Shown piece after piece: positions 3,879-31,912 of a stretch of DNA of 35,296 nt. The notes under the pieces were generated by a model. That model was not told the DNA's origin. It saw only the letters and a program-made list of their open reading frames with translations, and did no database searches. Location: positions 594-35,889 of IMG/VR virus record IMGVR_UViG_3300030107_001766; one strand, given 5' to 3'. Source of the stretch: a virus. A program made the translations under genes and the position numbers. Numbering within the stretch: position 1 is the stretch's first letter; each line of letters begins with the position of its first letter.

Positions 3879-4280
3879 CTAATTCTTATCTGGTCCTTTG
3901 TCCTTGGCTCTCTTAAAGCCTTGCGATTTAATTTTTTTAGACAATGTTTTATTTTCGTTTTTAGTTTCATGTGCTTCTCCTTTAACTAAATGAATAAAGT
4001 ATTTCCAATCTAATACTACTGTTGGTAATTGTCTGTCTTCTACTAACAATAATATTTCTGCATTACCTTTCCATCTTTGAATAGTTTTAAATCCTTCACC
4101 ATTAGCTCTAGCTTTAGCTTCAACTGATGAACCACCAAGTATATCTACTACTAGGTCATGTGGGAATCCAACTATAGCTCCACTCATTGGTTGTCTTCTA
4201 GCTGAGATTCCCTCATGTTCGAACATATGGACTAGCTTTCGTTCTACACGATAGCCTTTTTGTTTTTGACTTCTGCCCAT
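3879..4280 (-). CDS. Hjc-like Holliday junction resolvase / PD-(D/E)XK endonuclease
   Basis: The 133-residue protein begins 'GRSQKQKGYRVERKL' and has the PD-(D/E)XK set in Hjc spacing: E13, D42 ('FPHDLVVD'), and E54-A-K56 ('SVEAKARA'). Archaeal-type Hjc and related phage enzymes cut four-way DNA junctions made by recombination or packaging. The C-terminal 40 residues are a lysine-rich tail. It starts 1 base after the SSB stop (TAATATG) without its own ribosome site, so translation is probably coupled. With the exonuclease, annealing protein and SSB upstream it completes a recombination module. Confidence 0.85.
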   Translation of the reverse strand: MGRSQKQKGYRVERKLVHMFEHEGISARRQPMSGAIVGFPHDLVVDILGGSSVEAKARANGEGFKTIQRWKGNAEILLLVEDRQLPTVVLDWKYFIHLVKGEAHETKNENKTLSKKIKSQGFKRAKDKGPDKN

Positions 4281-4281
4281 A

Positions 4282-4701
4282 TTAAAAAGGTATATCTTCT
4301 ACTTCTTCTTTAGTGCTGTTGTTAGATGGTGACACTGTTTGTGTTGCAGTATCACCACTAGCTCCACCACCAAGACCTATTCTTTTTACTGCTCCTCTAA
4401 ATCTAGGTACATTAATTTCTGTAATCCATTTAGTTCCTGTATCTGATTCAAAGCTACGAGTAGTAATCTCTCCTTTGATATAAAACATTTCGCCTTTTTT
4501 ACCTGTTCTTTCTAGCATCTGTGCTAGGATAGGGTCAAAGACAACTATCTTATGCCATTCAGTTTTCTCTTGCCACTCATCACCCTTCTTATATTTTTGG
4601 TTAGTAGCTAAAGATAATCTTGCATACTTATCACCTTTGCTGGTTTCTTTTATTTCAGCATCAGCTCCTAGTCTGCCTATTAGTGTTACTTCATTTATCA
4701 T
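4282..4701 (-). CDS. ssb: Single-stranded DNA-binding protein
   Basis: The 139-residue protein has the bacterial-type SSB OB-fold: 'MINEVTLIGRLGADAEIK', 'ARLSLATNQKYK', 'EKTEWHKIVVFD' and 'GEMFYIKGEITTRSF'. A Gly/Ser/Thr linker leads to the acidic tip 'EDIPF' that recruits partner proteins. It would coat single-stranded DNA during replication and recombination. A strong AGGAGGT ribosome site precedes the ATG, which overlaps the annealing-protein stop by 11 bases. Confidence 0.95.
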   Translation of the reverse strand: MINEVTLIGRLGADAEIKETSKGDKYARLSLATNQKYKKGDEWQEKTEWHKIVVFDPILAQMLERTGKKGEMFYIKGEITTRSFESDTGTKWITEINVPRFRGAVKRIGLGGGASGDTATQTVSPSNNSTKEEVEDIPF

Positions 4702-5179
4702 TCTTTACCTCCTTATGAGATTTAATATTAAACTCTTTATATAATTCATCAATATATTTAGAGCTATCAAATTTACCCATGAATACATCTGCTGATAATC
4801 CTAGATGACTAAATGCTTTAGTCATAGCATCTGTCATAGCTTTCTTAGGAGCTTCATCATCTAACTTACCATTAGTTTTATATAAATTTTGAACAGAAGG
4901 TATAGGTCCAAAGCAATTAGTTAATGCTTTACTGTCATCATCTAACCAATAGATAGTAACTTCAGCAAACACTAGCTTATCAGTATAAGTAAATTTGTTT
5001 TCATGTTTCCAACCTTTACCTATAGGTCCAAACTGTTCTGTCATTCTCATTATCTGCCATTGAGGGTCAATAGTAGTTAGGTTTCCCCAACCTTTATTCA
5101 TACCTTTAGTAGCTCTTGGGTCAGTCTTCTTTAGTTTATCCCATATTATTTTATTGGGATTTAATGCTGTAGTTGGCAT
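4691..5179 (-). CDS. Single-strand annealing protein (Rad52/Erf-like superfamily)
   Basis: The 162-residue protein contains the pattern of phage annealing recombinases: 'KTDPRATKGMNKGWGNLTTIDPQW' near the start, 'MTEQFGPIGKGWKHE' and 'DDEAPKKAMTDAMTKAFSHLGLSADVF'. The last motif (DEAxKKAxTDAxxKAxSxLG) is the most telling. Such proteins form rings that anneal complementary single strands exposed by an exonuclease. Its neighbours, a YqaJ-type exonuclease upstream and SSB downstream, are the expected partners. A GGAGG site precedes the ATG, which lies inside the end of the preceding gene. The exact subfamily (Rad52, Erf or Sak) needs profile comparison. Confidence 0.75.
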   Translation of the reverse strand: MPTTALNPNKIIWDKLKKTDPRATKGMNKGWGNLTTIDPQWQIMRMTEQFGPIGKGWKHENKFTYTDKLVFAEVTIYWLDDDSKALTNCFGPIPSVQNLYKTNGKLDDEAPKKAMTDAMTKAFSHLGLSADVFMGKFDSSKYIDELYKEFNIKSHKEVKNDK

Positions 5180-5360
5180 AATGTTTTCCTCCGTTTTTAA
5201 TTATATCTGTTTGTATATCATATCCATCTTTCTTCAAGTCGAATATGATAGCTGATAATCTAAAAGCTCCATATTTATTTAGTGCCTCTAGTGGTGTAAT
5301 ACCTTTGCCTTCTTGCAAATGTATTAAAACTTTTTGCTTTTGAGTTTTATATCTTGCCAT
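5151..5360 (-). CDS. Helix-turn-helix protein (HTH_39-like)
   Basis: The 69-residue protein reads 'QKQKVLIHLQEGKGITPLEALNKYGAFRLSAIIFDLKKDGYDIQT', the pattern of the small winged HTH_39 domain found in many phages: a helix, a turn at 'ITPLEALNKYG', a recognition helix 'RLSAIIFDLKKDGY', then a short wing. It is likely a DNA-binding accessory to the recombination genes or a local regulator. It is coupled on both sides: its start overlaps the upstream gene by 14 bases and its stop overlaps the annealing-protein gene by 29 bases. Confidence 0.8.
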   Translation of the reverse strand: MARYKTQKQKVLIHLQEGKGITPLEALNKYGAFRLSAIIFDLKKDGYDIQTDIIKNGGKHYANYSIKSQ

Positions 5361-5556
5361 TTATTTCCTCCTCTATTTTATTTGCTAATCTATTGTCTTC
5401 CATGTTGTCCATTATCTTATCAAACTTCTCTAGAGTATTATTAAAGTGTTGTATTACTAGAGTTCTTGCATCAAATAATTGTGAGTATGTTAATGTATTG
5501 TCTATTTCAATATCAGTTAAGACAAAATCATTTACTGTTAGTTTCTTGTGCTGCAT
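5347..5556 (-). CDS. 69-aa helical hypothetical protein
   Basis: Two adjacent ATGs exist (5559 and 5556). The second is chosen because the AGGAGA ribosome site then sits at normal distance. The 69-residue product starts 'MQHKKLTVNDF' and is mostly helical with a probable short coil ('QHFNNTLEKFDKIMDNMEDNRLANKIEEEING'). I do not recognise the family. It overlaps the end of the exonuclease gene by 29 bases and the following helix-turn-helix gene by 14, so it is part of the recombination operon. Confidence 0.65.
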   Translation of the reverse strand: MQHKKLTVNDFVLTDIEIDNTLTYSQLFDARTLVIQHFNNTLEKFDKIMDNMEDNRLANKIEEEINGKI

Positions 5557-6355
5557 CATCTTCTCCTACAGTTATGTTTAATCTTCCAGTTTTAGAACGC
5601 TTAACTGTAACACCATGTCCAGTAGCTTCTCTCCAATCTGGTTTCACTAGAGATTTAATTTCTTTTTTACTAGCTTCAAACTCTCTAGCTTTTTCTTGTG
5701 TTTGTTTTAATGTTTGTGAAAGATATGCCCATTGATTACTATTTGTCATATCTTTTACTATCATCTTATCTAACACAAGTTCTTTAGTTGATGGTGTTTC
5801 TATTGCTTCACCATCATATGGTGGTTTGTCTTGTACAACAAAGCTCCAAAACTGTTCTTCCTTTTCTACTAATTGATTCATAAACTTTTCGTTCTTTTCT
5901 ATACGATAAGCTCCCCATCTATTACCAAAGATAATAGATAACCAAGCATAGTTACAATCAAACACATACATATAATGATGTATCTGTGGTAGATATGTTT
6001 CTATTGCTTTTTCTTGTGTAACAAATCCGTTTAAATGTTTAGCTTCAAAGATACCAAATTCATTATCACCATAGATTAAACCATCTACATTTGCATACAT
6101 GAAATCTTTTTTCTCACTAACTTTTAATCCTGTATGTGCTACTTCCATGTTCATTTGTTTTTCAAACCATTTAAGATTAAATGATTCTGTCCATACTCCT
6201 AGCTGTACTGGAAATTCATTTGATAAATCTGGTAAATCTTTTTTACCTGTCTTTTCTAACCATAAGTCATACCAATCTCCTGATACTATCTTACGAGCAT
6301 CAGAACCACCGATACCTTTCATTCTTTCTTCTTTAGTATAAGCTACTTCACTCAT
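5528..6355 (-). CDS. YqaJ/lambda-type recombination exonuclease
   Basis: The 275-residue protein has the YqaJ viral recombinase motifs: 'GIGGSDARKI' at residues 14-23, E57 in 'LGVWTE', D91 in 'YANVDGLIY', and E104-A-K106 in 'FEAKH'. These form the nuclease metal site. Enzymes of this family resect double-stranded ends 5' to 3', leaving strands for the annealing protein encoded two genes later. The gene begins at the end of a 53-codon gene by ATGA overlap. Without a phage polymerase, this module is the most obvious replication or recombination machinery in the genome. Confidence 0.88.
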   Translation of the reverse strand: MSEVAYTKEERMKGIGGSDARKIVSGDWYDLWLEKTGKKDLPDLSNEFPVQLGVWTESFNLKWFEKQMNMEVAHTGLKVSEKKDFMYANVDGLIYGDNEFGIFEAKHLNGFVTQEKAIETYLPQIHHYMYVFDCNYAWLSIIFGNRWGAYRIEKNEKFMNQLVEKEEQFWSFVVQDKPPYDGEAIETPSTKELVLDKMIVKDMTNSNQWAYLSQTLKQTQEKAREFEASKKEIKSLVKPDWREATGHGVTVKRSKTGRLNITVGEDDAAQETNSK

Positions 6356-6513
6356 TTTTTCTCCTCCATTGTATCTATTTCATTTAATATATTTTGAAAT
6401 TCTTCTTCTGGTGTATAATCAGCGTGTGACCAATTAACCATCGTATTAGTTTTTAGCATTTCTTTTACTTTTTTTAATATTTGATTAGCTAAGTCGTCTG
6501 GATTATTTCTCAT
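6352..6513 (-). CDS. 53-aa hypothetical protein preceding the exonuclease
   Basis: A clear AAGGAGAA ribosome site lies 5-8 bases upstream of ATG 6513. The frame encodes 53 residues (start 'MRNNPDDLANQILKKVKEM', end 'NEIDTMEEK') and finishes in an ATGA overlap with the exonuclease gene. Its first bases overlap the end of the preceding gene by 11. It is helical and acidic towards the C-terminus. The function is unknown. Overlap at both ends and the ribosome site are the evidence that it is real. Confidence 0.7.
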   Translation of the reverse strand: MRNNPDDLANQILKKVKEMLKTNTMVNWSHADYTPEEEFQNILNEIDTMEEKK

Positions 6514-6694
6514 TCGTCTTCTCCTTTTTATTTATTATTTGATTATGAATAGCTTTACCTATTACCATAGCAGTATCATCAAACTCTAATTTACCTGACA
6601 TAGATTTAATAGTTATGTCATTTTTTATAGTAGATAATTCTTTTTCAGTAATAGTTATAGTATAAGTTTTATTTATTTTCTTCTCGTCTTTCAC
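6503..6694 (-). CDS. 63-aa hypothetical protein (GTG start)
   Basis: It encodes 63 residues and begins with GTG at 6694. A GGAG element lies about 10 bases upstream, inside the end of the preceding gene. The sequence (KKINKTYTITITEKELSTI, then 'GKLEFDDTAMVIGKAIHNQIIN') suggests a short beta strand pair and helices, but no family is recognised. Its last codons provide the ribosome site for the 53-aa gene. It is coupled on both sides by overlaps. Confidence 0.6.
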   Translation of the reverse strand: MKDEKKINKTYTITITEKELSTIKNDITIKSMSGKLEFDDTAMVIGKAIHNQIINKKEKTNEK

Positions 6695-6953
6695 TATCCA
6701 TCTTCTCCTTTCTTAATCTAGCTGATGAAATCTTTTCCATCATATCTTTACACTCCTTATCTCCCTTCTCATATCTATTCATAAATTCTACCCAAGGAAA
6801 ACCTGGCATAGTTTTTATTATAAAATTTATATTTTTTTCTATCCATCTTTTCTTTCTGTTGTGTGGGTTAGACCAATCAATCGTTTGTGGTCGTCTTCTT
6901 GGATTCCATAATCGTGTTAGCTTTCTTATTTGATAGTTAATTTTATCTGACAC
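6669..6953 (-). CDS. 94-aa basic hypothetical protein (GTG start preferred)
   Basis: An upstream TTG at 6971 would give 100 residues. The GTG at 6953 is preferred because GAGGT sits six bases before it. The product is strongly basic (RKLTRLWNPRRRPQTIDW, HNRKKRWIEK) with a charged C-terminal helix (RLRKEKMDSERREENK). It may bind nucleic acid. It overlaps the end of the XRE-like gene upstream. No family is recognised. Confidence 0.6.
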   Translation of the reverse strand: MSDKINYQIRKLTRLWNPRRRPQTIDWSNPHNRKKRWIEKNINFIIKTMPGFPWVEFMNRYEKGDKECKDMMEKISSARLRKEKMDSERREENK

Positions 6954-7156
6954 TTTAGAACCTCTGCCCAATTATATAAGTTGTAGACATTAGGTCTGCG
7001 CATACCACATTCCCATTTAGATACTAGCTTATCAGCTACACCTATCATGTCATTGACTTCTATTTGTGTTAATCCCATCTCATGTCTCCGTTCAATGAAT
7101 GGTAAGATTACATCATTCCAAAATTTGTCGTTCTTTTTTTTGACTTGATAAGGCAT
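6926..7156 (-). CDS. XRE/Cro-type helix-turn-helix regulator
   Basis: The start at 7156 gives 76 residues containing an XRE-type fold: 'IERRHEMGLTQIEVNDMIGVADKLVSKWECGMRRPNVYNLYNWAEVL'. 'GLTQIEVNDMIGVADKLVSKWE' is a textbook helix-turn-helix, and 'G..RPN..NLYNWAEVL' is the usual helix after it. An alternative ATG at 7192 has a weak AAGG site. The gene overlaps the end of another small helix-turn-helix gene. It probably represses or times transcription of the leftward operon; the target site is unknown. No integrase is present, so a lysogeny switch is not implied. Confidence 0.68.
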   Translation of the reverse strand: MPYQVKKKNDKFWNDVILPFIERRHEMGLTQIEVNDMIGVADKLVSKWECGMRRPNVYNLYNWAEVLKCQIKLTIK

Positions 7157-7304
7157 TATAAATTTTTCTAGCTGTTTCAGCACGAGGTTCATACTTGCCC
7201 TTGAGCCACCTATAGTATGTGCTTGGATTAATTCCAACATCTTTGCACTTCTCCTTTATGGTATTCTTCTCAATACCTTTTATTAAATCTATAGCGTGTA
7301 ACAT
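7113..7304 (-). CDS. 63-aa Cro-like helix-turn-helix protein
   Basis: It encodes 63 residues with a helix-turn-helix pattern, 'IKEKCKDVGINPSTYYRWLKGKYEPRAETARKIYNAL'. 'INPSTYYRWLKGKYEPR' reads as recognition helix plus turn, similar to small XRE/Cro proteins. An in-frame TAA a few codons upstream fixes ATG 7304 as the first possible start; no good ribosome site is visible. A second helix-turn-helix gene overlaps its end, so two unlike regulators are made side by side. A small inverted repeat (7319-7336) lies just upstream and could be an operator. Confidence 0.65.
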   Translation of the reverse strand: MLHAIDLIKGIEKNTIKEKCKDVGINPSTYYRWLKGKYEPRAETARKIYNALSSQKKERQILE

Positions 7305-7318
7305 GATGCATTACTGAC

Positions 7319-7336
7319 ACAATTTTTATACATTGT
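7319..7336. promoter_or_regulatory. Small inverted repeat upstream of the tandem HTH genes
   Basis: ACAAT (7319-7323) and ATTGT (7332-7336) flank an AT-rich centre immediately after the ParB-like gene's stop and 15 bases before the first HTH gene. It could be an operator for the HTH proteins or a weak hairpin. The repeat is only 5 bp, so chance is possible. Confidence 0.25.
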
Positions 7337-8086
7337 CTATCTAAATCTCCCACTCCAATTTCTTCCTTCTCTTTGAAATCGTATTCTATTATCTACTCTT
7401 GTTCCAATATTATATATATGTTCTATTAAATCTAAGTAGTCATCTATGTTAGTACAATGTCGCATCTTCATACTGTGTGCCATTAATTGTTTCCACCACT
7501 TAGCTCTACTAAAATGTCTGTCCTTATCTAAGATAATTAAAGCACTAACATAACTTCTTTTATTCCATGCACTAAAGACTGGCTTTTGTTTAACTAACCA
7601 ATTACAAAATTCTTTAGCCCACTCTAGTCTTGTTATCTTTAATTTACCTTTCTTAAAGTCATTGATTTGTGTAGAGCTTAGTGATGAATCAGCTAAGATA
7701 CTGATTGCTACTTGAGTTGGTATATCATAACTTTTAATAAACCAATCAAGTGTTGTATAAGGACCTACACCTTTTTCTAAATCCATATAAGATTTAATAA
7801 AGTCGTTGTAGTTCCAACCTTTTTGAACAGAATTAATTTGTCTTATCTCATCTATGTTCCAGTTCTGACCAGCTATATAGTGAATAGGTAAATTTAATTC
7901 TTTACATATAGTAAATCTATGCTGACCATCTACTATTTCCATTTCTTCATTAACTATTATAGGAATAGGTAAGAAATTTTCTTTCATAGACTTACGTAGT
8001 CTACTCAAATGTAAATCATTTAATGGTCTATTACCCTTGACAAATCTAAACTGATTGTATTCATTAGTAACAGTAATTTTTTTCAT
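7337..8086 (-). CDS. ParB/Srx-fold nuclease-like protein
   Basis: The 249-residue protein starts with the ParB/sulfiredoxin fold: 'NRPLNDLHLSRLRKSMKENFLPIPIIVNEEMEIVDGQHRF', with the conserved DGQHR at residues 53-57. The family usually has G-E/Q-H-R here for nucleotide or DNA-backbone chemistry. Beyond about residue 75 the sequence is unlike chromosomal ParB. In phages such stand-alone domains are variously nucleases, DNA binders or replication/packaging factors. An AGGAGA ribosome site precedes the ATG. A 250-base structured noncoding segment lies directly upstream. Confidence 0.78.
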   Translation of the reverse strand: MKKITVTNEYNQFRFVKGNRPLNDLHLSRLRKSMKENFLPIPIIVNEEMEIVDGQHRFTICKELNLPIHYIAGQNWNIDEIRQINSVQKGWNYNDFIKSYMDLEKGVGPYTTLDWFIKSYDIPTQVAISILADSSLSSTQINDFKKGKLKITRLEWAKEFCNWLVKQKPVFSAWNKRSYVSALIILDKDRHFSRAKWWKQLMAHSMKMRHCTNIDDYLDLIEHIYNIGTRVDNRIRFQREGRNWSGRFR

Positions 8087-8337
8087 AAAAATTCTCCTTA
8101 TGTTTAAAGAACCTTACGCCCTTCGAAAACGAAAGGGCGTATGGTTCTGAAGTGGCACATGAATCAGCATCATAATCTCAAAAGGATAAATTATGAGAGG
8201 CGTACCACTAACCATTGGGGGAAGTAAAGTTACTTACGTCATAAGGGAACAAATATCCCAGCGGTTCACAATACTTCCCTATCCTATCTTCTAAGTATTC
8301 AGAGGATATCCCATGAATAGATTTCCGATAGTGTTCT
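8087..8337 (-). ncRNA. Structured noncoding segment upstream of the ParB-like gene
   Basis: No gene fits here. Several complementary arms are visible: AGTGG/CCACT (8151-8155/8205-8209) enclosing CATAAT/ATTATG (8171-8176/8190-8195); GGGAAGTA/TACTTCCC (8219-8226/8272-8279); and AATACTT/AAGTATT (8270-8276/8293-8299). The last two share bases 8272-8276, so they are mutually exclusive. A strong hairpin (8108-8148) ends the segment just before the ribosome site. It could be a leader with alternative folds, a separate small RNA, or a DNA site such as an origin. The strand shown follows the flanking genes. Confidence 0.4.
8108..8148 (-). promoter_or_regulatory. Strong hairpin in the leader of the ParB-like gene
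   Basis: AGAACC-TACGCCCTT-CG (from 8108) pairs with CG-AAAGGGCGTA-GGTTCT (to 8148) around an AAAA loop, with one mismatch and one single-base bulge, about 17 bp. On the minus strand it is followed by only three Ts, so it is a poor terminator. It ends about 15 bases before the AGGAGA site and might protect or gate translation, or mark an RNA processing point. Confidence 0.55.
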
Positions 8338-9276
8338 TTAATTATATTTATAATGCACACTCCTTTGTCCATCTAAATTATCAGTAAATAAAACTAACCA
8401 CATATCATTTGTTAATGCTTTAGCTACTGCTCGTTCTCTATTGTATTTAACATTATGTTCTTTACCTCTAGTATCTCCCCAATCTTCTGTTCTATCAGGA
8501 TGACTAGCATAATGTGTTAATGTATTATACAATGCCCATAATGTATTACCTAAACCCATAGATTCTTTTCTAAATCTATTAGCTAAGTTATCTACTAATG
8601 GTTTTGAATAATGAGAAGGTTCAGAAGGTCTTGGTCTATGACCAATAGTTTTCTTGAAGAATTGTAATGCTTCTTCAGGTGTTACTTCTGACTTAATCAT
8701 TAATTCAAATTCATCTTTGCTTTCATTAAATTTACTTGGAGCTAATGCTATCTTTTCTGCTACTGCATCTACATTAAAACCAAATGTATGTTTGTATCTA
8801 TTAGCAACATGAATTGCTGGTGATAAGCAACCATTCAAACACCATAATCTAAGTGCATCAAATGTTGCTGCAAACATACGTGTTAAATCTAAACTTGAAT
8901 CGATTACCATTCGTAGTTTAAGTACATCTCCTACTTGTGGTTCAGCTACATATTTATTAAATATAATTTCCCTTCTCCACTTGCTACCATCATCATATGT
9001 TTCATCAACTACTTTTATATCTGATAAATCTATTGATGGATTTTGTAGTAGTTTACTATTTATTTTCTCAATAATATCTTTGTGAGCTACTGGTACATAT
9101 TTACTACCACAAGTAGATATTAATTGACCATTTGTTTTATTATATATACCTCGTCTTATAAACTTAGATATAGTTTCACCGTTCCTATCTTGTATAGGTC
9201 CAGTCTCTACATCAAAGTTTAATATTGATGGTACACTCAACGCTGTGCGACCACCTTCTTGTACGCTAGTTTCCAT
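8338..9276 (-). CDS. DUF932 phage/plasmid-like protein
   Basis: With the start at 9276 the protein has 312 residues; GGGAGGGA sits six bases upstream, whereas the longer form from 9297 lacks a site. Recognisable DUF932 features include 'YKLVAHKDIIE'-like 'KYVPVAHKDIIEKI', 'LRLWCLNGCLSP' and a C-terminal 'LWALYNTLTHYASHP...EHNVKYNRERAVAKAL'. The family (also called phage/plasmid-like TIGR03299) is widespread on mobile elements and has no established activity; links to replication or recombination are suggested by context. It is the largest gene of the leftward block. Confidence 0.82.
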   Translation of the reverse strand: METSVQEGGRTALSVPSILNFDVETGPIQDRNGETISKFIRRGIYNKTNGQLISTCGSKYVPVAHKDIIEKINSKLLQNPSIDLSDIKVVDETYDDGSKWRREIIFNKYVAEPQVGDVLKLRMVIDSSLDLTRMFAATFDALRLWCLNGCLSPAIHVANRYKHTFGFNVDAVAEKIALAPSKFNESKDEFELMIKSEVTPEEALQFFKKTIGHRPRPSEPSHYSKPLVDNLANRFRKESMGLGNTLWALYNTLTHYASHPDRTEDWGDTRGKEHNVKYNRERAVAKALTNDMWLVLFTDNLDGQRSVHYKYN

Positions 9277-9418
9277 TAGTTCCCTCCCATTTATCATTAA
9301 CTACACTCTCAATAACTTCTATGTTATCATTGAGTTTTGATAGTTCCTGAATTGATTTAAGTATTTCTTCTCTAACTATCTTTCTAATTTTATCTGATAG
9401 TTCTTCATCACTTAGCAT
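9266..9418 (-). CDS. 50-aa helical acidic protein
   Basis: A strong AAGGAGGT ribosome site precedes ATG 9418. The 50-residue product (start 'MLSDEELSDKIRKIVREEI') is helical with heptad-like hydrophobics in 'ILKSIQELSKLNDNIEVIESVV'. It overlaps the DUF932 start by 11 bases and carries that gene's GGGAGGGA site in its last codons. Its own start overlaps the upstream 62-aa gene by 11 bases. The function is unknown. Confidence 0.72.
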   Translation of the reverse strand: MLSDEELSDKIRKIVREEILKSIQELSKLNDNIEVIESVVNDKWEGTNGN

Positions 9419-9596
9419 TAATTACCTCCTTTGATTCAAGACAATCTTCATGTTCCCAACTGTCATAAGATTCATCTAGTGTTTCTGAATTACAAAATTC
9501 ATTTAATCCACTATCATCTTCATAGTCATTTTCTGAACAAGTAATGAAGTATGTTCGTTGAACATTATATTGATGCACTACTTTATATTCTGGCAT
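9408..9596 (-). CDS. 62-aa acidic hypothetical protein
   Basis: It encodes 62 residues. After a beta-like start (MPEYKVVHQYNVQRTYFITC) the protein is very acidic (ENDYEDDSG, SWEHEDCLESKE) and has three cysteines. An AGGAGT ribosome site precedes the ATG. The acidic, small nature could suit DNA mimicry or a host-takeover role, but that is speculation. Adjacent genes overlap it by 11 and 1 bases. Confidence 0.62.
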   Translation of the reverse strand: MPEYKVVHQYNVQRTYFITCSENDYEDDSGLNEFCNSETLDESYDSWEHEDCLESKEVINAK

Positions 9597-9862
9597 TACT
9601 TACTCCTGTCATTTATTTTAGTTATGTCTTTATAGATACTGCTCTTTGCCTCATCTAAACTTTTATTTACTTCTTCTATTTTAGATAGCGTAGGTAGTAT
9701 TGCATCATAACAATTCTCTAAGCTATCTACCCTAGCTATTAGACCATTTACTCTCTTAACTTCTTTACCTAATATATCTATTTGTTTATTCATTACTTGT
9801 TTCAATGCTAAAAATTCTGTGCTTCTAAAGTTAGATGGTCTAAATATATTTAATATACTCAT
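9596..9862 (-). CDS. 88-aa coiled-coil protein
   Basis: It encodes 88 residues with long heptad patterns ('MNKQIDILGKEVKRVNGLIARVDSLENCYDAI', then 'LSKIEEVNKSLDEAKSSI'). A GGAG site lies upstream. No family is recognised; it could be a scaffold or partner-binding protein of the early program. It overlaps the upstream gene by 4 bases and the downstream gene by 1. Confidence 0.6.
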   Translation of the reverse strand: MSILNIFRPSNFRSTEFLALKQVMNKQIDILGKEVKRVNGLIARVDSLENCYDAILPTLSKIEEVNKSLDEAKSSIYKDITKINDRSK

Positions 9863-10119
9863 AACAACTCCATCATTTTAATATGATTATTTATTTCCTC
9901 ATTTAATTTCATGTATTGTTCTTTATACATATCATATTGAGGATTACTTTTATCTAATACCTTTAACAATGCAAAGATACTAGACCTTACTCCTTCTTTA
10001 GCAATTCTCAAAGACCAATGATTATCCATGGCTGCTTGAATATCTTTTTCATTTTGTTCAACCATTTCTTCATACTCTTTTGGTTCATGCTCCATCATGT
10101 GTTCAACTATTTTATTCAT
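9859..10119 (-). CDS. 86-aa helical hypothetical protein
   Basis: It encodes 86 residues, rich in Met, Glu and Lys, and helical throughout (KIVEHMMEHEPKEYEEMVEQ; later 'MYKEQYMKLNEEINNHIKMMELL'). The ribosome site is weak, but a 4-base overlap with the preceding stop suggests coupled translation. The function is unknown. Confidence 0.58.
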   Translation of the reverse strand: MNKIVEHMMEHEPKEYEEMVEQNEKDIQAAMDNHWSLRIAKEGVRSSIFALLKVLDKSNPQYDMYKEQYMKLNEEINNHIKMMELL

Positions 10120-10316
10120 AATTTCACCACAACTTTCTCTCTATTATCTATATCACTAACCAACTCTATTGATTTGATATTTCTATGTGACCACTCAACC
10201 TCGCCATTTTCTTTATCGGTAGAAAATATATGCTCAGTTCCTTCAAATTTTACATCAGCTTCAGGATATAATTGAGCTATGTGTGTCAATGTATGCACTA
10301 ACTTTTTGATTTTCAT
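10116..10316 (-). CDS. 66-aa hypothetical protein
   Basis: The ATG at 10316 is chosen because AGGAGA lies just upstream; a GTG further upstream would start inside a hairpin. The 66 residues begin 'MKIKKLVHTLTHIAQLYPEADVKFEG' and continue with alternating beta-like segments (KSIELVSDIDNREKVVVKL). I do not recognise it, though small alpha/beta proteins like this occur in many phage early regions. A large hairpin lies in the leader. Confidence 0.62.
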   Translation of the reverse strand: MKIKKLVHTLTHIAQLYPEADVKFEGTEHIFSTDKENGEVEWSHRNIKSIELVSDIDNREKVVVKL

Positions 10317-10337
10317 TTTTTCTCCTAATCTATGAGA

Positions 10338-10380
10338 GAGAAACTTTTCCCCCACAGGAACGAAGGGGGGGAAGTTTCTC
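10338..10380. repeat. Long GC-rich hairpin between early genes
   Basis: GAGAAACTTTTCCCCC (10338-10353) faces GGGGGGGAAGTTTCTC (10365-10380). On the plus strand all 16 positions pair if two U-G wobbles are allowed. On the minus strand the two wobbles become mismatches, leaving 9 + 5 bp. It lies between two leftward genes and has no T-run after it on the minus strand, so it is not a simple terminator. It may be an RNA processing site or an antisense structure. Confidence 0.5.
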
Positions 10381-10388
10381 TTATGTTA

Positions 10389-10580
10389 TTATAGTTCCAC
10401 TATATTATTTACTCTCACTCTAACGAATGGTTTAATGGAATCTTTCTTAGGTCCTTTCTTAATTCTGTATTTAGTTAAGTCAGTTTCCTTTGGTAATTCA
10501 GATGATGGTATAGTTTTCATCACCTTCTTACCTTTTAAGAAAGCATTTAATCTATTTAATTCTTTACTCAATAAATCCAT
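10389..10580 (-). CDS. 63-aa basic hypothetical protein
   Basis: It encodes 63 residues, basic in the middle (KGKKVMKTIPSSELPKETD, then 'YRIKKGPKKDSIKPFVRVRV'). A GGAG site lies in the last codons of the upstream 46-aa gene, whose stop shares bases with this ATG (TAATG). It could bind nucleic acid. No family is recognised. Confidence 0.6.
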   Translation of the reverse strand: MDLLSKELNRLNAFLKGKKVMKTIPSSELPKETDLTKYRIKKGPKKDSIKPFVRVRVNNIVEL

Positions 10581-10720
10581 TATACTCCTCTCCCTAATAA
10601 ATATATTATTAGTTGGTTAAAGTTTTCAGCATGGGTATATAGATATCCCACCATAGCTACACACCAGATAGCTATTATTAATTTAGTAATAAATAAAGTT
10701 AATCTAAAGGCGAAGCTCAT
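10580..10720 (-). CDS. 46-aa single-span membrane protein
   Basis: A strong GGAGGTGA site precedes ATG 10720. The 46-residue product starts 'MSFAFRLTLFITKLIIAIW' and has a hydrophobic stretch of about 25 residues (to about 27), followed by a short polar part and a second mildly hydrophobic end (LIIYLLGRGV). It is likely an inner-membrane protein of the early program. It overlaps its upstream neighbour by 17 bases and its downstream neighbour by 1. Confidence 0.7.
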   Translation of the reverse strand: MSFAFRLTLFITKLIIAIWCVAMVGYLYTHAENFNQLIIYLLGRGV

Positions 10721-10934
10721 CTTCACCTCCAGTCATTGATTGTTCTATTACATTTAATGAAGTTAATTCATTACTCAATAGCTGGGCAACTGCCCATTCA
10801 GCTATCATTTTATAATCTTGAGTGGACATTTCCCTCAATGAACCTAAGTCATGCTGTAATTGTAATAGTTCTGAATGATTTAATGATTGGTCATTACTCA
10901 CCTTATCATTTACAGCGATAGATAATGCTAACAT
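10704..10934 (-). CDS. 76-aa hypothetical protein, first gene of the main early operon
   Basis: It encodes 76 residues, helical and acidic (MLALSIAVNDKVSND; then 'LLQLQHDLGSLREMSTQDYKMIAEWAVAQLL'). A GGAGA site lies upstream, and the promoter at 10953-10981 would place the transcript start about 12 bases before the ATG. It is therefore probably the first gene of the long leftward operon. Its function is not known. Confidence 0.65.
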   Translation of the reverse strand: MLALSIAVNDKVSNDQSLNHSELLQLQHDLGSLREMSTQDYKMIAEWAVAQLLSNELTSLNVIEQSMTGGEDELRL

Positions 10935-10952
10935 AAACTTCTCCGTTTCCTG

Positions 10953-10981
10953 TTTATATCATTTATATTGCACTACTGCAA
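10953..10981 (-). promoter_or_regulatory. Sigma-70-type promoter of the leftward early operon
   Basis: On the minus strand TTGCAG (10976-10981), a 17-base spacer and TATAAA (10953-10958) form a good host-type promoter. It sits just downstream of the terminator at 11002-11024 and upstream of the gene starting at 10934. The surrounding ACTACTGCA/ACTACTACAG repeats and CTACT/AGTAG inverted arms could bind a regulator. Confidence 0.6.
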
Positions 10982-11001
10982 CTACTACAGTAGACAAAAT
11001 A

Positions 11002-11024
11002 AAAGGGGGAATTTATCCCCCTTT
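11002..11024 (-). terminator. Rho-independent terminator after the 129-aa gene
   Basis: AAAGGGGGA (11002-11010) and TCCCCCTTT (11016-11024) form a 9-bp stem with a 5-base loop. On the minus strand the stem is followed by TATTTTG. It begins 4 bases after the stop codon of the leftward 129-aa gene, making that gene a separate transcript. Confidence 0.75.
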
Positions 11025-11027
11025 ATA

Positions 11028-11417
11028 TTATGTAGTAATTCTTAGCTTTTGGATTCTGCGTTTTTCCTTCACATTTTCTGCGATTGAAAGTCCTTTATTC
11101 CATTTATAGTATGGAACTCCTACTTCCTTTACGAACGCTTTAACTTCAATAGTTCTTAGCTTTACAAGAAGTTCTTTATTTTCTTGTAAATCACCAAGTT
11201 TATCTTTGATATCATCAACTTTAATGTCGGCTTTATTAACGCCCATTGAAGCTGCTGCATCAGGAGATTCTAGAAAAGCTATATGAGATTCCAAATCAGC
11301 TTGTGAATTTTCGTTCAAATCAATAGCTTTGTCGATAACTCCAATTATCCCTTCAAGTAAATATTTGGTAGTAAAATCGTTAAGCTTTGAAATTGCTGTC
11401 GAATTAACAAGAGTCAT
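11028..11417 (-). CDS. 129-aa hypothetical protein, isolated first leftward gene
   Basis: I do not recognise this protein. It has 129 residues, mostly helical: an N-terminal part (LVNSTAISKLNDFTTKYLL, EGIIGVIDKAIDLNEN), a central acidic helical part (KADIKVDDIKDKLGDLQENKELLVKLRT) and a basic end (NVKEKRRIQKLRITT). It is the gene nearest the noncoding hub, has a dedicated leader hairpin that covers its GGAGA ribosome site, and ends in its own terminator. This isolated, structured transcript suggests an abundant or tightly controlled early product, perhaps a host-takeover or regulatory protein; that is inference from layout. Confidence 0.75.
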   Translation of the reverse strand: MTLVNSTAISKLNDFTTKYLLEGIIGVIDKAIDLNENSQADLESHIAFLESPDAAASMGVNKADIKVDDIKDKLGDLQENKELLVKLRTIEVKAFVKEVGVPYYKWNKGLSIAENVKEKRRIQKLRITT

Positions 11418-11422
11418 ATTTT

Positions 11423-11514
11423 TCTCCGTTTTGGTTAAGAGGCGGAACCCATTTCTCGCCTATCAGCCCTCAGGCAGGCGCAGAAAAGGAACGTTCGCCT
11501 CTCCAAAACGGAGA
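11423..11514 (-). promoter_or_regulatory. Two-stem leader hairpin burying the ribosome site of the 129-aa gene
   Basis: TCTCCGTTTTGG (11423-11434) is perfectly complementary to CCAAAACGGAGA (11503-11514). Inside it, GAGGCG-AAC (11439-11448, one extra G) pairs with GTTCGCCTC (11493-11501). A further GC-rich internal set (TTTCT/AGAAA, GCCT/AGGC, GCC/GGC) fills the top. On the minus strand the ribosome site GGAGA is the final part of the outer arm, 5 bases before ATG 11417. It resembles a translation switch, riboswitch or protein-binding leader; I cannot match it to a known class. Confidence 0.65.
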
Positions 11515-11521
11515 CAAATAT

Positions 11522-11660
11522 GGTGAATTGTTAATTTGACCATAGCTATTTCTGCTTAACGATTTTACCCCTCCAAATATTTATGCTATCACCTTTTTTC
11601 AAGGTGATATGAAGGTATAATTGAGAGATATCCAAAGGTATTTATTTTAACAAATTCACC
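11522..11660 (+). ncRNA. 5' part of the structured hub: competing stems and a hairpin
   Basis: GGTGAATT-GTTAA (11522-11534) can pair over distance with TTAACAAATTCACC (11647-11660), 13 bp with one bulge. It can instead take part in a local TATGGT/ACCATA hairpin. Between the arms a perfect 8-bp hairpin ATCACCTT/AAGGTGAT (11588-11608) is followed by a TATAAT at 11616-11621 with no convincing -35 box. A local ACAAAT/ATTTGT hairpin competes with the 3' arm. No gene is seen. Confidence 0.4.
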
Positions 11661-11674
11661 TGATTTGTAATTGA

Positions 11675-11702
11675 GTATTAGGTTTTCTTTATCTCCTGAT
11701 AC
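11675..11702 (+). ncRNA. Hairpin with a G-U pair in the structured hub
   Basis: GTATTAGG (11675-11682) pairs with CCTGATAC (11695-11702). One position is U-G on the plus strand and would be an A-C mismatch on the minus strand. This mildly favours the plus strand as the RNA strand. Confidence 0.4.
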
Positions 11703-11737
11703 AGCATTGTGTAAATGAGGTGTTAATCAAACGAATA

Positions 11738-11743
11738 TATAAA
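11738..11743 (+). promoter_or_regulatory. Possible -10 box before the nested-stem domain
   Basis: TATAAA lies at 11738-11743. A transcript starting about 7 bases later, near 11750, would begin just before the first long arm at 11757. The candidate -35 (ATGAGG, 17 bases upstream) is poor, so this is weak support. Confidence 0.25.
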
Positions 11744-11756
11744 GTTCTGATATTAA

Positions 11757-12004
11757 AGATAAACGCCAATGATTTACTTGAAAATCAATAATGATATGTA
11801 ATGCTTAGAACTATTTAATTAATAGTGTTCGTTAAGGAAGTCATCTAGGTGTTCCTACTATCAATGGGATATCTAGGTCTTTCTCGTAGACAATGTGTTT
11901 AGGTAAAACCATAATATAAATGCTTAGTTTTACTTCATAATATAAAGGCATAAATTCACTTTAAATTGGTCTACTGATAGATGACTTCCTATTGGCGTTT
12001 ATCT
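11757..12004 (+). ncRNA. Nested long-range stems, core domain of the candidate large structured RNA
   Basis: AGATAAACGCCAAT (11757-11770) is the exact complement of ATTGGCGTTTATCT (11991-12004), 14 bp. Inside it, AGGAAGTCATCTA (11835-11847) is the exact complement of TAGATGACTTCCT (11978-11990), 13 bp. The two 3' arms are contiguous, so the stems could stack. The 5' arms are separated by 64 bases holding hairpins GATTT/AAATC (11771-11786) and GAAC-TATT/AATA-GTTC (11808-11830). The inner loop holds GTAAAAC/GTTTTAC (11903-11933). This reads as a folded branched RNA; a DNA-level origin or recombination site is the alternative. Confidence 0.6.
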
Positions 12005-12008
12005 ATCG

Positions 12009-12148
12009 ACTAGGCTTATTAGTTTTCGGCATACGCCTCAACTAATCACACCCCCAATAAGCCATGTTTCGCCATTCGGCTACACATTAGAGTTACGGCA
12101 TACGCCTTCACCTAAAACATTCCGCCCTTCGGCTACACTAGGCTTATT
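12009..12148 (+). repeat. Tandemly repeated hairpin module with alternative partners
   Basis: Direct repeats: ACTAGGCTTATT at 12009-12020 and 12137-12148; CGGCATACGCCT at 12027-12038 and 12096-12107; TTCGGCTACAC at 12075-12085 and 12128-12138. AATAAGCC (12056-12063) is complementary to GGCTTATT in either outer repeat (12013-12020 or 12141-12148), so two exclusive folds are possible. Small GC hairpins alternate: GGC-ATAC-GCC, GCC-ATTC-GGC, GGC-ATAC-GCC, GCC-CTTC-GGC. It is noncoding in both strands as far as I can see. Confidence 0.6.
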
Positions 12149-12156
12149 TCAAGATG

Positions 12157-12209
12157 TTGTATGTCGTCAGCAATTTCTTGTACTAAATCTGGTGTGCGTT
12201 GACATACAA
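12157..12209 (+). ncRNA. Closing stem just upstream of the small terminase gene
   Basis: TTGTATGTC (12157-12165) is the exact complement of GACATACAA (12201-12209), 9 bp around a 35-base loop. The 3' arm contains a perfect TTGACA, so the same bases may serve as a promoter -35 box. No T-run follows, so it is not a terminator on the plus strand. Confidence 0.45.
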
Positions 12210-12226
12210 AAATAAAGGTTTATTAG
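12199..12226 (+). promoter_or_regulatory. Possible promoter of the late packaging/morphogenesis block
   Basis: TTGACA (12199-12204) is followed after 16 bases by TATTAG (12221-12226), or after 19 by TAGTAT. A start near 12233 would leave only a few bases before ATG 12239, giving an almost leaderless message. The -35 is perfect but the -10 is mediocre. Confidence 0.4.
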
Positions 12227-12238
12227 TATAAGAGACTT

Positions 12239-12619
12239 ATGCCTAATACTCCCACAATTAAGAACTTAACGCATAGACAACGCACACTTGTTGATACTAT
12301 TGTATCACAAGATATTAGCGTAACAAAAGCTGCTGAAATTGCTGGATATGCTAAGGGTGAGAGTGGTAGAGTAGTAGCAAGTAAAACATTACGATTACCA
12401 CATGTACAAGAGTATATGATGCAACAAGTAGGGCAACACCTCACCCTTTCAAGCATATCTTCTGTGAAACGACTACGACATCTTGTTGACCATGCTCGTT
12501 CAGAGTATGTTCAGCTCGAAGCTAGTAAGGATATCTTAGATAGAGTAGGGTTCAAGCAACCTGATAAGGTTAGACATACTCTGGATGGTGATATCAGCGT
12601 CAAGATAGATTTATCTTGA
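12239..12619 (+). CDS. terS: Terminase small subunit
   Basis: The 126-residue protein has an N-terminal helix-turn-helix typical of small terminases: 'LTHRQRTLVDTIVSQDISVTKAAEIAGYAKGESGRVVASKTLRLPHVQEYM'. This resembles the Terminase_2 family 'xxAAxxAGYxxxxxxxxxAxxxLxxPxVxxxM'. The C-terminal half ('SVKRLRHLVDHARSEYVQLEASKDILDRVGF') is the usual helical oligomerisation region. It would recognise the packaging site on concatemeric DNA and deliver it to the large subunit encoded at 13623. It is the first gene of the rightward block. The ribosome site is weak (AGAGA), which fits a near-leaderless start. Confidence 0.78.
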   Translation: MPNTPTIKNLTHRQRTLVDTIVSQDISVTKAAEIAGYAKGESGRVVASKTLRLPHVQEYMMQQVGQHLTLSSISSVKRLRHLVDHARSEYVQLEASKDILDRVGFKQPDKVRHTLDGDISVKIDLS

Positions 12620-19672: not shown

Positions 19673-19924
19673 ATGGCTTATTCAACTGATAATCCTGTTA
19701 AAAAAATAGCACAAATGGGAGCTTCAAATGCTCTTTGGTACTATACAGATGGGGACGCAATCGGTACAATAGATGATGATAATTACTTTTTAGCTGATTA
19801 TAACCTATTGACTGCTGGTGATATTATTATTGTAAATAGTGGTGGCTCTAATGCTGTAGTAGATATATTAATTGTATCTGTACAGGATGGTGGCTCTAAC
19901 TGTGATACAGTAATTTTAGCGTAG
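19673..19924 (+). CDS. 83-aa small structural protein candidate (capsid-associated)
   Basis: A strong AGGAGGA site (at the end of the capsid gene) precedes the ATG. The 83 residues form a small beta-rich domain: 'SNALWYYTDGDAIGTIDDDNYF', 'LLTAGDIIIVNSGGSNAVVDILIVSVQDGG'. Small 'ADAIATVDTANYF...GDLIxV' proteins often follow phage capsid genes and are annotated as decoration, fibre or structural proteins; that link is from memory. It is probably a minor or decoration protein of the head. A hairpin terminator follows. Confidence 0.7.
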   Translation: MAYSTDNPVKKIAQMGASNALWYYTDGDAIGTIDDDNYFLADYNLLTAGDIIIVNSGGSNAVVDILIVSVQDGGSNCDTVILA

Positions 19925-19934
19925 TAATCTAATC

Positions 19935-19959
19935 ACAAGGGGGAATTTTTCCCCCTTGT
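19935..19959 (+). terminator. Hairpin after the capsid genes, probable partial terminator
   Basis: ACAAGGGGGAA (19935-19945) and TTCCCCCTTGT (19949-19959) form a perfect 11-bp stem with a TTT loop. Only a short T-run (TT, then AAAAA) follows, so readthrough into the tail genes is likely. It resembles the terminator at 11002-11024 in its G5/C5 core. Confidence 0.65.
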
Positions 19960-29300: not shown

Positions 29301-30200
29301 TTTACTGGAGTATTAGGACAACATAGAATGGTTAAACATAGTCTTGAATGGAGTAAAGGAACTATAAAACCAAATGATATGAAATGGTTATTAGAAGTAG
29401 GAATAGACCAAAGAAAAGCATTAAAAATTGTAAAAGAATTAAATGCTGGTAATATACAAAGAGGAGATAATATTTTTTTAATGAATACTATGTCTTGGGG
29501 TGACCAAGAACTAGCTCATTATGTTCGTTCACATTTATCAGATGAAATAGTTAGAACTATTGTAACTCCTAGAGCTGCTGATAGACCAAATCTTATGGAT
29601 GGAGTATTAAAAATAGCTACAGGAAGAACAGCATCAGGACAAAAAAAATATTTTAGAGCTGATTCTTCTGGTTTTAGTATGCCATTTCAATTCTTATCTT
29701 ATGGAATGTCAGCTACTTCTAAGATTATGTTAGCTGGATTACAAAGACGAGATGCTGCTACTATGTCAGGACTTGTAGCTATGATGACATTAGGTTATTT
29801 CTCAGCAAGATGGAGAGACCCTTATTGGGATAAGAAAACTTTTACTGAACAAACAATAAGAGTAATAGAATTAACAGGTATGTTAGGTGTAGTTAATGAT
29901 ATGAATATAATGTTAGAAACATTATCAGGTGGACAATTAGGAGCAAGACCAGCTTTTGGAGCAAGACCTTTATTTGGTGAAGTTAATATGGGAGATAGAT
30001 TGGGTGAACCTTTCGGACCGGGAATTAATATGGTAACTGAAGCAATATGGGCTATGACTTCAGATGATGCAACAAGAAATGATAGAGCTGCGATTGTGCG
30101 TAGACTAATTCCTTGGAACAATTTATGGGTATGGAAAGACTGGTTTAGACAAGCAAGTGAATCTGCATATGGAACTTTAATAGAAAAGGAAGATAATTAG
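26391..30200 (+). CDS. Largest internal virion protein, gp16-like
   Basis: The 1269-residue protein is the longest gene and takes the gp16 position. It has a hydrophobic Gly-rich region at about 145-215 ('[30 protein letters not shown]', '[20 protein letters not shown]'), a long helical body and basic segments near the end ('[23 protein letters not shown]'). The lytic transglycosylase domain found at the N-terminus of T7 gp16 is not evident. It would be ejected to span the inner membrane. Its stop overlaps the next GTG start. Confidence 0.72.
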
Positions 30201-31912
30201 TGGCACATATTACAATATCAGATAATGCTCCTAGAGTACAGATAACAGGAACAACAAGTGTTGGTCCACACGCATATAATTTTGAGATATTTGCTGATGC
30301 AGATTTAAAAGTATATATTAATGATACTCTTAAAACTTTAACTACTCATTATACTGTAGCTGGAGCTGGTGAATCAGGTGGTGGTAGTATTACCTTTACT
30401 GGTGGTAATGCTCCTTCTTCTTCATCAGATGTTATAACTATTCAAAGAGATATAGCAGTATCAAGAACAACAGATTTTGCTACTTCTGGTAGTTTTCAAA
30501 TAGATTCTTTAAATACAGAATTTGATAAACTAACAGCAAAAGTAGCTCAACAAGAATTTAATATTAGGAGAGCTCCTCTACTTAAAGCAACTACAGTAGA
30601 TGCTAACCTAGACGAAACATTTCCTGACCCTGTAGCACACAAAGGAATTAAATGGAACAGTTCAGCTAATGCCTTAGAAGCAGTACATTTAGATTTTAGT
30701 GCTGCTGTTTCAACTGTATCTGTAGGTAATCCAGCAACTGCAGCTTTAAATACAACTACTGGAGTTTTTACTTTTGGTATTCCAACTGGAGCAACAGGAG
30801 CAACAGGACCAACAGGACCTAATGGTCCAACTGGTCCAAGTGGACCGACAGGACCTAGTGGACCGACAGGTTCAACAGGTTCAACTGGACCTGCAGGACC
30901 GACAGGACCTAGTGGACCAACTGGACCTAGTGGACCAACAGGACCAACTGGACCTAGTGGACCAGCGGGTTCTGGTTCTATGACAAACTTTGTATTAGAG
31001 GATGATTCTGGTGATGAAGTTTCAATTGAAGATGGAAAAGAAATTAAGTTTATTGGCTCTGGTATTACAACAAACTGGACTGATACTTCTCATGGTACTG
31101 ATGGTGACCCATACGATTTAACTTTTACTGTTGATGCAGCACAAACTGGAATTACTTCCATGTATGCTACTGATTTAATTTTAGGTGAAGATGCAGAAAC
31201 TGCTATTGATTTTGGAACTGCAAATGAAATTGATTTTAAAGCTGATAATGCTGCAAGGTTAACATTAACTGCTTCTTCTTTATATCCAGTAACTACTAAT
31301 CAAATTGATTTAGGAACTGCTTCTTATGAATTTAAAGATGCTTTCTTTGATGGCACAGTAACAGCAGATGCTTTTGCTGGACCATTAACTGGTAATGTAA
31401 CAGGTAATGTTTCTGGTACAGCAGCTACTGTTACTGGAGCAGCACAATCTAATATTACTTCTGTTGGAACTTTAACTACTTTATCTGTAGATAATATTAC
31501 TGTTAATGGAAATGACATTTCTTCTACAGATACTAATGGAAATATTACTTTAACTGCTAATGGCACAGGTAAAATACAATTTAATGATTTAGCTTATATT
31601 CCTCAACAAGCAATTACTTCATCTTCAAATGCTGTTGCTTGGGATGTTCAAGCAAAACCAAATGCTTATCATCAAACTTCAGAAAATACGACTTTTTCTG
31701 CACCAACAAATGGTGTTGAAGGAGCTTTTATTTGTTTAGAAATTAATTATAATGGTTCACATACTATTGGGTGGAACACAGTTTTTGAATTTGCTGCTTC
31801 AACTGAGCCAACTGAAACAGCAACAGATGGCAAAACTGATATTCATGTATTTAGATACAATGGAGCTATCTGGCAAGAAGTAGGTAGAACAATGAATTTA
31901 AGTGAGAGTTAA
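30200..31912 (+). CDS. Tail fibre protein, T7 gp17-like N-terminus with collagen-like stalk
   Basis: The GTG start overlaps the previous TAG. The 570-residue protein has three parts. Residues 1-150 ('[38 protein letters not shown]', '[27 protein letters not shown]') match the T7 gp17 N-terminal attachment domain. Residues about 197-258 are Gly-X-Y collagen-like repeats. The rest is beta-rich, with repeating '[11 protein letters not shown]' and '[16 protein letters not shown]' typical of marine phage fibres. It would attach to the tail and carry receptor-binding modules encoded next. Confidence 0.85.
30788..30976 (+). repeat. Collagen-like Gly-X-Y repeat tract
   Basis: Repeats of GGA/GGT-ACA/CCA-... 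encode about 20 Gly-X-Y triplets, mainly GPT, GPS and GAT, in the stalk of the tail fibre. Units such as '[16 protein letters not shown]' recur nearly identically at DNA level, so length changes by slippage or recombination are likely between relatives. Confidence 0.85.

Follow-up and report, generated by a model that had tools for sequence, protein, structure and literature searches.

In a Pelagibacter-phage-like virus, a small minus-strand protein-coding gene faces a non-coding, inverted copy of itself, and the gene (here called B), a central hairpin and the inverted copy (A) together make up one imperfect hairpin of ~1 kb near the gene for the terminase small subunit (terS). The pairing of this gene-and-mirror structure is, in our judgement, probably under selection. 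The DNA analysed (the window, 35,296 nucleotides) corresponds to positions 594-35889 of a 35,889-base virus record, and a PHROG search of it recognised podovirus-like structural genes as well as the terminase small subunit at 12239. Coordinates below are those of the window, and features are on the plus strand unless stated otherwise.

Genes in the window run leftward from 3879 to 11417 and rightward from 12239 onward, and by analogy we term the leftward genes early and the rightward genes late. Gene B (11028-11417, minus strand), the first leftward gene, is an open reading frame of 129 aa with a ribosome-binding site, and is followed by an intrinsic terminator (11002-11024, minus strand); terS (12239-12619; PHROG 2538 and 51) is the first rightward gene. 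A sits between the start of B and a promoter-like site directly before terS (TTGACA, a 19-nt spacer and TAGTAT; 12199-12229). This site ends 8-9 nt from the terS start codon in the window and in the relatives L003, L004, L005 and L012, so close that the terS mRNA would be leaderless; its version in the isolate Pelagibacter phage EXVC031P Hodr (OQ414635) is TTGACA-17-TATACT, and the site is strong in Hodr and L012. Inspection for promoters revealed no convincing sigma-70 promoter for gene B and no convincing plus-strand promoter to the left of the hairpin from which a transcript of the whole rod-like structure could start. The window had no match to the covariance models of Rfam 15 at the gathering score and contained no tRNA genes, a DNA search of annotated phages gave no match, and a scan of ten proteins, which covered a minority of the early genes, turned up no recognisable DNA polymerase. 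Other features of the region and genome (~36 kb) include a ParB-like protein encoded at 7337-8086; in-frame 9-nt repeats at 30783-30980, within the gene at 30200-31912, that correspond to collagen-like Gly-X-Y triplets; and near-identical terminator-like sequences of the GGGGGAATTTATCCCCC type at 10989-11023 and 19923-19957, 9 kb apart. Between A and terS, the segment 12013-12150 holds the repeated short motifs GGCATACGCC and TTCGGCTACAC together with inverted AATAAGCC / GGCTTATT pieces; these motifs are present in the window and L005, and in L003, L004 and L097 their place is taken by a short AAGC-GCTT hairpin.

The B protein is predicted by AlphaFold to form a two-helix coiled-coil hairpin (pLDDT 82). 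It had no match in PHROG, a protein search for relatives likewise found none, and comparison of the model with the PDB returned generic coiled-coil matches alone, with E never below 0.5 and nothing informative on function. B evolves fast, and TerL and TerS do not: its dN/dS is about 1 against L003 and 0.45 against L097 (whose B is 71% identical to that of the window), and among phages bearing a mirror copy the median identity between pairs of B proteins is 0.27. The B proteins of L069 and L070 share an identical C-terminal end and differ in their N-terminal parts, a pattern that suggests recombination within the gene; in these two phages the mirrored copy follows the N-terminal part of B.

Self-search and alignment of the window place A at 11503-11976, where it mirrors the leader, start and coding region of B and, as a decayed relic at ~11944-11962, its terminator. 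The two are ~74% identical, and the inverted copy reaches from a centre at ~11465 to the motif GTCTACTG at 11969-11976. The inverted alignment of A with B scores 217, against 16 in shuffles, and no inverted copies of other window genes were found (next best score 27, median 18). In the phages inspected, A lacks at least one of start codon, ribosome-binding site and reading frame. The antisense (plus) strand of B forms the left arm of the rod, which is closed on the outside, beyond the B terminator, by CAGTAGAC (10988-10995) pairing with its mirror GTCTACTG; the former is found in the left arm of the window, L003, L004, L005, L086, L089 and L097 (in L087, where it was not found, the left arm is cut off), and the latter in all of these and L087. 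In the window clade the rod stops 262 nt before terS. Its sole predicted lateral branch is a side stem-loop, TATCACCTT...AAGGTGATA (11587-11609), present in the window and L003. In L086 and L089, whose B proteins are ~65% identical, A carries small deletions relative to B in the same zones, as if the positions of bulges were conserved.

The arms meet in the central hairpin (11420-11518), which was aligned for six sequences of the window clade (the window, L004, L005, L086, L087 and L097). Both sides have changed in 15 of 39 pairs, and the covariation score of 0.347 compares with 0.166 in shuffled alignments and was reached by none of 500 shuffles; controls slid along the alignment gave 0.14 or below. 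An internal loop, GAACCCATTT opposite AAAGGAACGT, is invariant while the flanking stems change together. A covariance model of the hairpin found no loci outside the window clade.

The region had drawn attention through two nested, exactly complementary long-range stems with contiguous 3' arms, and a reverse-complement check of all four arms confirms them: AGATAAACGCCAAT at 11757-11770 pairs with 11991-12004 (stem 1), and AGGAAGTCATCTA at 11835-11847 pairs with 11978-11990 (stem 2), the two 3' arms abutting. The original prediction that such pairing is very unlikely by chance also holds, as a single perfect 13-bp stem within 400 nt occurred in 21 of 2,000 dinucleotide-preserving shuffles of 11418-12238, and two such stems in none. 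The local fold of 281 nt is similarly distinct from shuffles on both strands (z = -4.6 plus, z = -4.3 minus), and so does not pick a strand. Both 5' arms lie inside A, the diverged inverted copy of the neighbouring gene, so that the stems are part of one arm of a gene-sized imperfect palindrome. The 3' arms form a 3' tail, in which the arm of stem 2 is an insertion with no counterpart in gene B. The tail is present in the window, L003 and L097, the three genomes whose B is of the 129-aa type, and absent from L004 and L005, and is therefore an extra piece. A wider search with a 16-mer of the tail gave 12 matches, two of which, the contigs of L003 and L097, could be assigned to the window clade.

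Comparison of these relatives speaks largely for compensatory change in the four arms. In L003, a G to A substitution in the 5' arm of stem 2 is accompanied by C to T in the 3' arm, the same substitution being found in the L003 gene B; a 4-nt insertion on both sides of stem 2 in the window and L003 is gone from both sides in L097; and the L097 stems, CATAGATAAACG/CGTTTATCTATG and AGGAAGTTAGG/CCTAACTTCCT, are kept at 12 and 11 bp with their 3' arms still abutting. On the other side stands an uncompensated one-base deletion in the 3' arm of stem 1 in L003, which leaves a bulge. When A is folded alone, the mean predicted probabilities of stems 1 and 2 are 0.95 and 0.69 in the window, 0.88 and 0.01 in L003, and 0.42 and 0.98 in L097, so that stem 2 of L003 also counts against compensation. 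The further suggestion, that the stems are the core of a branched RNA or else a site paired at the DNA level, survives as regards a paired element and fails as regards the core. The fold predicted for the plus strand of 10960-12050 (-432.7 kcal/mol) joins A to the antisense of B over almost its whole length, leaving one side stem-loop; 11757-11764 pair with 11198-11205 and 11835-11841 with 11122-11128, and the predicted probability of both stems in the full rod is zero.

The two arms change jointly. L003 A is 86% identical to that of the window, and at 33 scored differences between the B genes of these two phages, A differs too at 25 and pairing is kept at 18; for L039 and L081, A also differs at 40 of 49 B differences, with pairing kept at 29. 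These joint changes contradict a view of A as a pseudogene decaying independently of its parent. Between the window and L003, concerted sites are interspersed with A/B differences common to both phages, which is evidence against long conversion tracts. The breaks in the arms consist of small indels about as often as of substitutions, or more often (Hodr has 23 gap events and 4 mismatch events). In 8 of 8 phages tested they are spaced more evenly than the breaks of simulated decay put through the same alignment, with P of 0.005-0.013 in the window, L003, L097, L050 and Hodr and without significance in L004, L012 and L007; the kinship of the window, L003 and L097 means that the eight tests are not independent of one another.

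Mirror copies recur among related phages. We sampled at least 80 virus loci with a related terminase small subunit, and in 62 upstream regions (including those of the window, L003 and Hodr) gene B was chosen automatically, a procedure that sometimes picked the wrong open reading frame. With each phage compared with its own B, and a threshold of z above 12 relative to shuffles, an inverted copy was found in 31 of the 62 regions and in 23 of 44 after removal of redundancy; by this test, with its sometimes wrong choice of B, no mirror copy was seen in 15 of the 44. Each copy matches the B of its own phage, despite the low identity among the B proteins, and in Hodr 94% of aligned bases agree over 183 nt. 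Usually the copy takes in the leader and 60-170 nt from the beginning of the coding sequence; in some phages A tracks up to 430 nt of the coding region, and in the window, L003, L097 and L050 the whole gene is mirrored. Close relatives can diverge strongly in the B/A block: the window and L004 are quite different there and 93-95% identical in its flanks.

We consider the paired molecule to be probably RNA, and give the plus strand an even chance, favoured by two features of the sequences. Among mismatches of the window clade, 24 are compatible with G.U pairing on the plus strand and 9 on the minus strand (P 0.014), and the window genome has no strand skew at its 4-fold sites; G.T pairs in single-stranded DNA would give a similar bias. 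The two arms both conserve the closing motif CAGTAGAC/GTCTACTG, despite its position past the terminator of the B mRNA. Other approaches to the strand were set aside. A G.U asymmetry pooled over 23 phages (244 vs 75) fails a quasi-independence control, with 117 observed and 119.6 expected; the excess follows from the G/T richness of A, and support for a strand from G.U pairs thus comes from the window clade. The terS 4-fold sites of the sampled phages are G/T-skewed. Differences in minimum free energy do not discriminate, as shuffles of equal composition differ equally (relative to shuffles, 1.29 for the minus and 1.23 for the plus strand, with 0.12 of control stretches exceeding 1.25), and neither did a scan of self-alignments scored with wobble pairs.

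The reading that we favour, with somewhat less than even confidence, is that selection keeps the pairing of a hairpin of ~1 kb, whose likeliest form is a plus-strand RNA in which an antisense-B half is followed by the A half; its RNA nature, its strand and its mode of action are what we infer. In such an RNA, A would hold the antisense arm in a regularly interrupted rod, and because the interruptions come at regular intervals the rod would be displaceable. The B mRNA, a perfect complement of the antisense arm, would displace A, and the freed A would be captured by its own 3' tail through the two stems, so that an alternative fold would arise just upstream of the terminase genes. At the early/late boundary, such an element would sense early-gene mRNA. 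Modelled energies (~-971 kcal/mol for the perfect duplex of B mRNA and antisense plus free A, ~-545 kcal/mol for the closed rod together with free B mRNA) make strand displacement thermodynamically possible, which is a possibility and nothing beyond it, since perfect complementarity to the mRNA is a property of every antisense RNA. A switch between the rod and the tail-captured form of A is accordingly a tentative proposal, one that we think more apt to be wrong than right. Slightly more doubtful is its extension to a marine-phage class of gene-sized riboregulators, in which a rod opened by mRNA (and kept open by the tail, in the window clade at any rate) would signal early gene expression to the late operon.

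The main rival is template switching at the quasi-palindrome, by which B would be recopied into the facing arm while A otherwise drifts, giving pairing without function and compensatory-looking changes that are single copying events. Template switching is documented, and can create and maintain perfect stems and multi-base compensatory changes (PMC8794818); it would have A follow B in each phage, as observed, and the two-part 3' tail resembles a copy of two nearby segments. We nevertheless hold it to be unlikely, as the copied tracts would need to be only a few bases long, with concerted sites alternating with fixed differences, and as it does not account for an internal loop invariant on both sides between stems that change together, nor for breaks more even than simulated decay. 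That indel events rival or outnumber substitution events is likewise unlike ordinary decay. Decay is the essence of a further alternative, an ordinary inverted duplication of gene B, which would explain the loss of the start codon, ribosome-binding site or frame from A in the phages inspected. This alternative is very improbable: it would need a recent fresh origin in more than 20 lineages, and later changes in B would leave no trace in a decaying A, contrary to the joint change in the window and L003.

Two other readings keep a function for the pairing and place it elsewhere. One is a DNA-level hairpin that would form in single-stranded DNA, plus or minus, during replication or packaging and, lying beside the terminase genes, would serve as an origin or as a signal for conversion or packaging. 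Its location at the early/late divide next to terS, an invariant internal loop that could be a protein site, and the lack of a transcript start in the promoter inspection all fit, and DNA tolerates imperfect palindromes with frequent interruptions. The G.U bias of the clade is rather what RNA would be expected to show, though G.T in DNA gives the same, and A in some phages tracks up to 430 nt of coding sequence, well beyond the extent of known origin hairpins; we judge a DNA element quite unlikely. The other, less likely still, is sequestration of a ribosome-binding site, in which a read-through transcript of either strand would hide its first start codon (that of B or of terS) in the rod and translation would come solely from transcripts starting inside it. 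The ribosome-binding site of B is always covered by the rod, which in L012, L043, L016, L007 and Hodr reaches within 1-16 nt of the terS start and in Hodr, L012 and L007 covers a sigma-70-like promoter. Sequestration has no need, however, of pairing deep in the coding region, as found in the window, L003, L097 and L050, and the 262-nt gap before terS in the window clade argues against it.

The early transcripts of T4 gene e contain hairpins of a few tens of bases that hide a ribosome-binding site; the structure described here is like them in its position near an early/late boundary, where its pairing could mask such a site, and differs in that the rod spans hundreds of bases, coding sequence included. 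In the cis-antisense regulators P4 CI RNA, P1 c4 and CopA, an RNA is complementary to the start of an adjacent gene, as is the case here, whereas the putative antisense strand of the present element is already covered by a co-evolving non-coding partner. GOLLD and ROOL are large ornate phage RNAs with many conserved helices and pseudoknots, found near tRNA islands (PMC12286853). The predicted RNA would share with them its being a very large structured phage RNA; it is instead a single rod that uses the antisense of a protein gene, with no tRNA and no Rfam match. Template-switch hairpins and quasi-palindromes have been described with short stems (PMC8794818, PMC7202029) and have inverted copies and compensatory multi-base changes in common with the present case, in which by contrast a gene-length arm follows a fast-evolving gene in many lineages. 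Obelisks are circular, rod-like RNA replicons with an open reading frame (PMC11922315). A rod of ~1 kb, an open reading frame in one arm and a marine setting are shared with them; on their description they are set apart from this element, which belongs to the genome of a DNA phage and is flanked there by conserved phage genes. The literature that we searched held no description of such a gene-and-mirror element and nothing on regulation at the early/late boundary of these phages.

A protein gene with a non-coding mirror image that is re-fitted as the gene changes, in more than 20 phage lineages, is a kind of element for which we found no described match. For a group of phages with a Pelagibacter phage among its members, it offers a defined site to study at the early/late boundary. 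With one arm under protein-coding constraint and the other free of it, the element also provides a clean natural test between selection on RNA structure and template-switch copying as the source of compensatory change.
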